DNA from: an uncultured Sphingomonadales bacterium
GTDB lineage: Bacteria > Pseudomonadota > Alphaproteobacteria > Sphingomonadales > Sphingomonadaceae
Length of the DNA stretch: 40,462 bases
Assembly (NCBI GenBank): GCA_903923465.1
Contig: CAIXXP010000131.1
Location: 1 to 40,462, forward strand
Direction: 5' to 3'
The translations under genes were made by a program, and so were the position numbers. Shown here in pieces: positions 13,630 through 15,395 of this stretch; position 1 is the first letter of the stretch; every line of letters begins with the position of its first letter. The notes beneath the pieces were generated by a model, which did no database searches, was not told the origin of the DNA, and saw only the letters and a list, made by a program, of their open reading frames with translations.

Positions 13630-14451
13630 TCAGCCCTCGGCGCCCGGCTGGTCCGCCGTGGCATTGGCCGCAGCCGGCGCCGGCGCCGCCGCCTTCGCCT
13701 CGCGTCGCTCGCCCAGCCACATTACCAGCAGCGAACCCTCGTAGAGCACCCACATCGGCACCGCGAGCATGAATTGCGAGGCGACATCGGGCGGCGTGAG
13801 CACGGCGGCAAGGGCCGTGATCCCGACGATGACATAGCGCCGGGCGCCGGCCATCTGCGCCCGGCTGACAATCCCCGCCCGGTTCAGCAACAGCATCAGC
13901 ACCGGCAGCAGGAACGACAGGCCAAAGGCGAAGATGAACTGCATCACCAGGCTCAGATAGTCGCCGGTGCTGGGCAGCGCCTCCAGCTTCAGCCCGCCGC
14001 GCTCCCCCTCGAACCCCAGCAGCCAGCGGAAGGCGTTGGGCATCACCACGTAATAGGCAAAAGCCGCGCCGCCGGTGAACAGTAGCGGGGTGGCGATGAG
14101 GAAAGGCAGGAACGCCCGCTTCTCCTTCGCATAAAGCCCCGGGGCGACAAAGGCCCACAACTGGTTGGCGATGACCGGGAAGCTGATGAGGAAAGCGGCG
14201 AACAGCGCCACCTTCAGGTCGACGAAAAACGCCTCGTACAGCTTGGTATAGACCAGTCGCCCCTCGCCATGGGGAAAGGCATTGGCCAGCGGACGCACCA
14301 GAAAGCCGAAAATGCCATCGACGAAATAGAGGCAGCCGCAAAAGGCGACAAACAGCGCCAGAATGCAGCGCATCAGCCGGGCGCGCAGCTCCAGCAAATG
14401 GTCGAGCAGGGGCACCTGCGTCTCGTCGATATCCGGGATTTCAAAGGCCAT
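13630..14451 (-). CDS. tatC: Sec-independent protein translocase TatC
   Basis: PLLDHLLELRARLMRCILALF..., VAPGLYAKEKRAFLPFLIATPLLF, VLTPPDVASQFMLAVPMWVLYE. Confidence 0.97.
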   Translation of the reverse strand: MAFEIPDIDETQVPLLDHLLELRARLMRCILALFVAFCGCLYFVDGIFGFLVRPLANAFPHGEGRLVYTKLYEAFFVDLKVALFAAFLISFPVIANQLWAFVAPGLYAKEKRAFLPFLIATPLLFTGGAAFAYYVVMPNAFRWLLGFEGERGGLKLEALPSTGDYLSLVMQFIFAFGLSFLLPVLMLLLNRAGIVSRAQMAGARRYVIVGITALAAVLTPPDVASQFMLAVPMWVLYEGSLLVMWLGERREAKAAAPAPAAANATADQPGAEG

Positions 14452-14466
14452 GGCAGGTTGGATGCC

Positions 14467-14880
14467 TCAGGGCGCGGGCGGGCTGGCGGCGGCGGCCTGC
14501 GCTGGCTCCACCGGCGATTTGGCGGGAGTGTGCGGGGCTTGGGTTTCGGGCGCCGGGGTTTCCGGCGCCGGGGTCACGCTCTCGGCATGGGGCACGCCTT
14601 CGGGCGCGGGCGGCGCCAGCGGCTGCGCGGGGCCCACGCCCACGGCGGGGTTGGCGCGCATGATCGCCTCGTTCTGCTCGCGCCACTTCTTTTCCATTTC
14701 CTCCAGCTCGGCCTCGCGGATCATGTTCTCGACGCCGGCGCGGAAGTGGTTGGAAACACGCCGCGCCTTGCCGGCCCAGCGCCCGGCGGCCCGCAGCGCG
14801 CGCGGCAGATCCTTCGGCCCGATCACCACCACAGCGACGAGGATGATGGCCATGATTTTTTCGAGGTCTAGATCGAACAT
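14467..14880 (-). CDS. tatB: Sec-independent protein translocase TatB
   Basis: MFDLDLEKIMAIILVAVVVIGPKDLPRALRAAGRWAGKARRVSNHFRAG; between tatA and tatC. Confidence 0.95.
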   Translation of the reverse strand: MFDLDLEKIMAIILVAVVVIGPKDLPRALRAAGRWAGKARRVSNHFRAGVENMIREAELEEMEKKWREQNEAIMRANPAVGVGPAQPLAPPAPEGVPHAESVTPAPETPAPETQAPHTPAKSPVEPAQAAAASPPAP

Positions 14881-14954
14881 GAGGCGCTACCTGCCGGGCC
14901 AGAGGATTTCAGCGGGTAGACGATACCACCAGAACCCTCCAGTTTTTTGTGGTC

Positions 14955-15119
14955 GCATCGTTTTAGGCGAACACCGGTACCCACTTTTTTGCACGATGCT
15001 CATTTGGTGGGTCGCATCGTTTGAGGCAAAAAACCGGTACCCACTTTTTTGCACGATGCTCATTTGGTGGGTCGCATCGTTTGAAGCAAAAAACCGGTGC
15101 CCACTTTTTTGCACGATGC
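14955..15119 (-). repeat. Three head-to-tail palindromic repeat units in the tatA-tatB spacer
   Basis: Units at 14955-14999, 15014-15059 and 15074-15119 separated by identical 14-nt spacers (tcatttggtgggtc); minus-strand unit GCATCGTGCAAAAAAGTGGGTACCGGTTTTTTGCCTCAAACGATGC. Confidence 0.95.
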
Positions 15120-15125
15120 TCCGGC

Positions 15126-15395
15126 TCAGCCCTGCCCGGTCGGCGTGGTCTCGCCGGGGGCGGGGGCGGGCTGTGCCACGGGCGGGGCGGCAGGCTCTGG
15201 CGCGGGCGGGGCAGCGGCGATTTGCGAAGGGGGAGGAGTGACCGGACGGTTGGTCGTCTCGTCGGCCATACCTTCCTTGAAGCTTTTGATACCCTTGCCA
15301 AAATCGCCCATCAGATCGGAAACCCGACCCCGGCCGAACAACACCAGCACCACCAGCGCGAGCACGATCAGGTGGGGAAGTGACAGACCCATCAT
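15126..15395 (-). CDS. tatA: Sec-independent protein translocase TatA
   Basis: [43 protein letters not shown], canonical TatA TM-amphipathic helix. Confidence 0.95.

Follow-up and report, generated by a model that had tools for sequence, protein, structure and literature searches.

A dispersed, probably non-autonomous REP-like palindrome forms a lineage-specific tandem array between tatA and tatB in a sphingomonad genome

Hairpins at the 3' end of a transcript can protect mRNA. Among the systems closest to the one analyzed here, the Rhizobium-specific intergenic mosaic elements (RIME), attributed to Osteras in 1995, are reportedly intergenic palindromes of rhizobia. The GTAG REPs and REPINs associated with RAYTs resemble our element in being short, dispersed intergenic palindromes with one distinct strand and a TAG-containing left flank. 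CGTC-tagged REPs occur mainly in Alphaproteobacteria, including sphingomonads, and no dedicated transposase is known for them (PMC3733652). The Br-REP1 and Br-REP2 families of Bradyrhizobium are dispersed palindromes tied to 3'-UTRs (PMC5082802). We analyzed a window of 40,462 nucleotides from an uncultured Sphingomonadales bacterium in which the tatA-tatB gap carries a tandem array of palindromes. We conclude that this array is a recent lineage-specific insertion of a genome-scattered repeat that was multiplied in place, and not a dedicated Tat switch. The element is of a kind already known (REP-like dispersed palindromes) and displays a testable anchoring at gene borders.

All the features of the locus lie on the minus strand, with the gene order scpA, scpB, tatA, tatB, tatC; gene names are our reading of the translations, and TatABC are backed by homologues in relatives. 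The tatA gene (15126..15395; an ORF with TatA homologues in relatives) ends in a TGA codon (15126-15128) and is separated by 245 nt from tatB (14467..14880), which is followed by tatC (13630..14451). Three head-to-tail palindromes were found in this gap with a period of 60: palindrome 1, nearest tatA (15074-15119), palindrome 2 (15014-15059), both of 46 nt, and palindrome 3, nearest tatB (14955-14999; 45 nt). TRF reported a single array (14951-15121, period 60, 2.9 copies, 94% matches), and the arm GCATCGTGCAAAAAAGTGG matched the window three times with 0 mismatches (0.00 by chance; 100 shuffles, 3 mismatches allowed). The layout given in the original prediction, with three direct copies of 45-46 nt beginning 6 nt past the stop of tatA in a gap of ~245 bp, was thus confirmed. 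Each unit comprises a 45-46-nt palindrome and a 14-nt tail, and the two tails that serve as spacers (15060..15073 and 15000..15013) are identical. The 6 nt that separate palindrome 1 from the tatA stop (15120..15125) read GCCGGA; the resulting CGGAGC represents one recurrent 5' end of the element, most copies presenting TAGAGC. On the tatB side, the inserted sequence ends in a non-repeat remainder of ~50 nt (14900-14954), which was rejected as a second known repeat because no convincing second copy was found in the genome.

Palindromes 1 and 2 (cores AAAAGTGGGCACCGGTTTT and AAAAGTGGGTACCGGTTTT) are each predicted to fold into one hairpin with a 7-bp outer stem, a one-sided 5-nt bulge, an 8-bp inner stem, TGG/CCG and a 3-nt loop (-20.5 kcal/mol and z ~ -4 as RNA; -15.3 as DNA). 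Owing to a T-G pair in the core, folding is more favorable for the minus strand than for the complementary one. These results agree with the 7-bp and 8-bp stems initially proposed for this strand. Palindrome 3 has decayed (-12.5 kcal/mol; z -0.9): its right inner arm is degenerate, and its coding strand contains GTGTTCGCC in place of GTTTTTTGC. The loss of an "A-tract" first described for this copy is plus-strand wording; it is a T-tract that was lost from the coding strand. We predicted no intrinsic terminator (GC-rich stem with an unpaired T-run) within the array, whose T-run pairs with an A-run and so is not an unpaired run of the terminator type. The promoter and terminator scan returned nothing inside the array, and the Rfam covariance-model scan yielded only two chance-level matches, both outside it.

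The comparison with relatives indicates how the array arose. The element core was absent from all the tatA-tatB gaps that we retrieved from relatives (0 of 109 tatABC loci, including a few genomes counted twice through two retrieval routes), and these gaps measured 12-87 nt. In the closest relative (TatA 98%, TatC 96%), the gap of 23 nt runs from GCTGA through CTTAGCCCGGCAGGTATTGGCGG to ATG and represents an empty site. Relative to this site, the window retains GCTGA and the tatB upstream flank GCCCGGCAGGTA unchanged, with ~222 extra nt between them and no clear target duplication. The element-free gaps together with the empty site therefore indicate a lineage-specific insertion that was amplified locally.

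The same element is dispersed across the genome. This Novosphingobium-like draft (2.96 Mb, 299 contigs, 88.9% complete) contains ~41 copies at ~28 places (41 core matches vs 1 for a reversed control pattern), as revealed by the genome search for the 46-nt unit that had been proposed beforehand. Many short palindromic copies were thus found, nearly all intergenic or at gene borders, and their neighbors are unrelated genes, which bears out the suggestion of a REP-type hairpin. Several places consist of arrays of two to four copies at 54-62-nt spacing, and tandem arrays other than that of tat were found on contigs C6, C26, C29, C113, C268 and C278. Spacers of one array, that of tat included, resemble each other but not those of other arrays; each array therefore probably expanded where it stands, as had been proposed for tat.

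These observations bear on the reading first given to the array, namely that its hairpins protect the tatA mRNA or attenuate transcription, thereby uncoupling tatA from tatB/tatC and maintaining TatA in excess of TatB. The array does lie within the operon, 6 nt past the tatA stop, with two hairpins of -20.5 kcal/mol, and the E. coli work summarised in PMC5082802 reports that REPs located in a 3'-UTR may stabilise the mRNA or terminate it. However, the array is absent from the tatA-tatB gaps of all 109 loci of relatives, the same element stands at ~28 unrelated places, and the array is devoid of any terminator-like site. Moreover, the E. coli work summarised in the same source indicates that ribosomes can stall and decay can follow when a REP lies no more than 15 nt from a stop codon, and TatA would therefore be expected to fall rather than rise. 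A device dedicated to tat is thus very unlikely: a selected TatA:TatB function is not supported, the absence of the array from relatives being one of the outcomes that the original prediction had named as evidence against it. Any effect on the TatA:TatB ratio in this strain would be a side effect, in either direction. These results correct a tempting tat-specific reading. That the unit is a genome-wide repeat was not visible from the window alone.

We further analyzed the distribution of the element, which consists of an invariant 19-nt core, AAAAGTGGNNACCGGTTTT, inside copy-variable, self-complementary outer stems. The core was detected in 27 of the 121 genomes of a family sample (control pattern: 0) and in 11 of the 240 genomes sampled evenly across the Alphaproteobacteria. 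Many close relatives present no copy at all, and copy number is very uneven across the family. In the class-level copies, AAAAGTGGNNACCGGTTTT is surrounded by quite different outer stems, and the ends often resemble TAGAGC (5') and GCGACCANAA (3'). Using one element for each of 55 left-arm types, we observed an outer stem of at least 6 perfect bp with the type's own right arm in 58% of the types, vs 4.1% when arms were swapped between types, indicating compensatory change in the stems. Plasmids of Sphingobium, Sphingomonas and Rhizorhabdus also carry the unit of the window itself. Two rhizobial repeats present the same architecture: the first was found in 366 plasmid records, mostly of Rhizobium, and the second, with the core AAAAGTGTGAAGCGGTTTT, at 2171 places in 569 records. 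Judged by their shared architecture, the sphingomonad and rhizobial repeats would form one family; the repeats are too short for a tree. The palindrome family spans distant Alphaproteobacteria; it is missing from Rfam 15, and the core strings returned no match in our literature search.

The element differs in several respects from the described families. The copies of this genome lack the CGTC tag, the stem starting with AT and the CCA tail of the CGTC REPs (as described in PMC3733652), which are likewise alphaproteobacterial, reach into the sphingomonads and are without a known dedicated transposase; the element is also larger (46 nt), with its invariant 19-nt core. The consensus sequences of Br-REP1 and Br-REP2 (CCGGAATCTCGAGATTCCGG; CGAGATTCCGGGTTCGGCTCTT...) are unrelated to it (PMC5082802). 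No inverted termini of the MITE type were found, the ends TAGAGC and GCGACCACAA not being inverted and no target duplication being clear. RIME is similar in that it comprises rhizobial intergenic palindromes, and element-like architecture is abundant on rhizobial plasmids, but the sphingomonad element is a single unit of ~60 nt. We read the element as a REP-like mobile hairpin without a match to a published family, RIME having been compared by architecture.

We then examined the position of the element relative to genes. In nine sphingomonad genomes, a codon model was used to call the genes around 88 element loci, with the element masked. Across the 74 loci with both neighbors known, the 5' end of the element was anchored in 38, vs ~3.6 expected. 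In 22 of these (2.3 expected), a gene on the same strand has its stop codon at most 2 nt from that end; in the other 16 (1.3 expected), the element stands upstream of an opposite-strand gene whose start codon is 12-15 nt away from that end. Expectations were obtained by placing each element at random inside its own gap (20,000 trials, with maxima not above 10 and 8), and the same test on the 3' side of the element gave 0 for stops and 0 for starts. The thresholds were set after viewing the distribution in this and other genomes and the counts are therefore descriptive, yet such a choice could not come near to producing the excess; the test is exact for stops and weaker for starts. Published annotations present the same pattern: coding sequences end exactly in the TAG of CTAGAGC in three Bradyrhizobium plasmids and one Mesorhizobium plasmid, and an annotated Sphingobium coding sequence ends at the element. 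Other annotated plasmids show a distance of 8 nt (Rhizobium fba) or no anchoring, indicating that the anchor is frequent rather than universal.

The stop codons at the junction are mostly TAG (15, with 5 TAA and 2 TGA), whereas genes away from elements mostly end in TGA (259, with 63 TAG and 38 TAA). The tat array follows a TGA and not a TAG, and the tat copies present CCGG-AGC at the left flank, for which the consensus is (C/T)TAG-AGC with G rare at the first position. In two relatives, the empty orthologues end at the same codon as the element-bearing gene, which places the element after the native stop, and we rejected the hypothesis that the element supplies the stop codon. We also rejected a model of insertion after any TAG: with all intergenic TAGs as targets, only 8.7% would fall at the stop position and 1.7% at the start position, vs 30% and 22% observed, and a bare preference for TAG is therefore insufficient. 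Beyond TAG, the anchoring may owe something to DNA becoming single-stranded at promoters and at the ends of genes, or to functional retention.

At start-type loci (valS, thrS, thiS and hisZ; among L171-L197 and L234-L293), the element is located where the -10 box of a leaderless gene would be. At thrS, the relatives retain a TTAG whose distance from the start is nearly unchanged, and those without the element present, in gene direction, TTGAG(G/C)-N17-TAAGGG-N8-ATG, which is likely a leaderless promoter as judged from its sequence. The possibility that the element donates a -35 box at start-type sites was discarded, since it offers only a weak TTCCCA. The core contains GA in 21 of 23 elements at starts and 23 of 33 at stops (P = 0.096; Fisher test).

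Some junctions are occupied in relatives by elements with a different stem: thiS, C113 and C147a in G137 (L173 on C147, L175 on C268 and L176 on C113 compared with L320, L312 and L314) and C147b in G130. At the G137 junctions, which lie upstream of the same gene in both genomes, either insertion recurred at a single nucleotide position or the stem evolved very fast with compensation, and the differing stems there could reflect a maintained function. The element might then be a gene-boundary signal, part of a leaderless promoter or a 3'-end signal, that is maintained and bound by a conserved alphaproteobacterial factor, with tat as one instance. The precise anchoring, the junctions reoccupied with different stems and the class-wide invariance of the 19-nt core, all else being variable, argue for such a role. 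Nevertheless, we consider it unlikely, given that copy number is very uneven with any copy in only 27 of the 121 family genomes, that most of the compared sites are element-free in G137 or G130, that anchoring after stops and before starts would need different functions, and that the element, when reversed before a start, provides only the weak -35 sequence. A broader possibility, which we hold tentatively and at low confidence, is that the invariant core is read by a conserved factor, that the element, a mobile hairpin targeted to gene boundaries, is inserted or kept at near single-nucleotide precision, that its self-complementary stems evolve fast and that it has either a mobiliser of its own or a host function. 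Placement at gene borders is exact and measurable, and the invariant core with its varying stems makes a mobiliser or binding factor testable.

No mobiliser or transposition event was found in the genomes analyzed. A classical REP/BIME system driven by a RAYT would account for the left-hand TAG before the hairpin and for the dispersed, intergenic copies. However, the element carries NTAG instead of the GTAG tag, and its copies form head-to-tail tandems in one orientation, whereas BIMEs alternate in orientation. No Y1_Tnp/RAYT gene, flanked by the repeat or otherwise, was detected in this draft (88.9% complete) or in three genomes rich in copies (G040, G087 and G090, of which G040 and G090 are complete), and where Y1_Tnp loci were found in other genomes, no element stood beside the gene. 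Y1_Tnp/RAYT was thus rejected as the mobiliser, and we regard a RAYT-driven system as highly improbable.

We instead favor, with good confidence, the interpretation that a short palindrome of an alphaproteobacterial family, REP-like and non-autonomous, was inserted here recently and then amplified head to tail in place. Three features (strand asymmetry, a TAG on the left and no clear target duplication) suggest that the element moves like REPs and IS200, travelling in folded, single-stranded form. Of the two strands, one would be favored, because the T-G wobble and G-G mismatch of the core fold well only on that strand. Insertion would occur at or beside a left-hand TAG- or TA-containing sequence, as for REPs and IS200/IS605 ends, with the site supplied by a stop codon or, in leaderless genes, by the complement of the -10 box, and insertions inside genes would be purged by selection. 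Under this interpretation, the tat mRNA would have gained three hairpins from 6 nt after the tatA stop, of which two are stable and one is degenerate, and any effect on tat (3' protection, ribosome stalling at the stop or weak attenuation) would be a by-product.

Two element copies, unlike the rest, are located inside open reading frames (L185, C37:824-875; L183, C38:4167-4218), one of them near the 3' end of the frame. Finally, at L173 (contig C147, 7543-9031), a pair of oppositely oriented elements, ~1.4 kb apart, flanks an amine-oxidase-like gene, which adjoins a squalene-hopene-cyclase-like gene.
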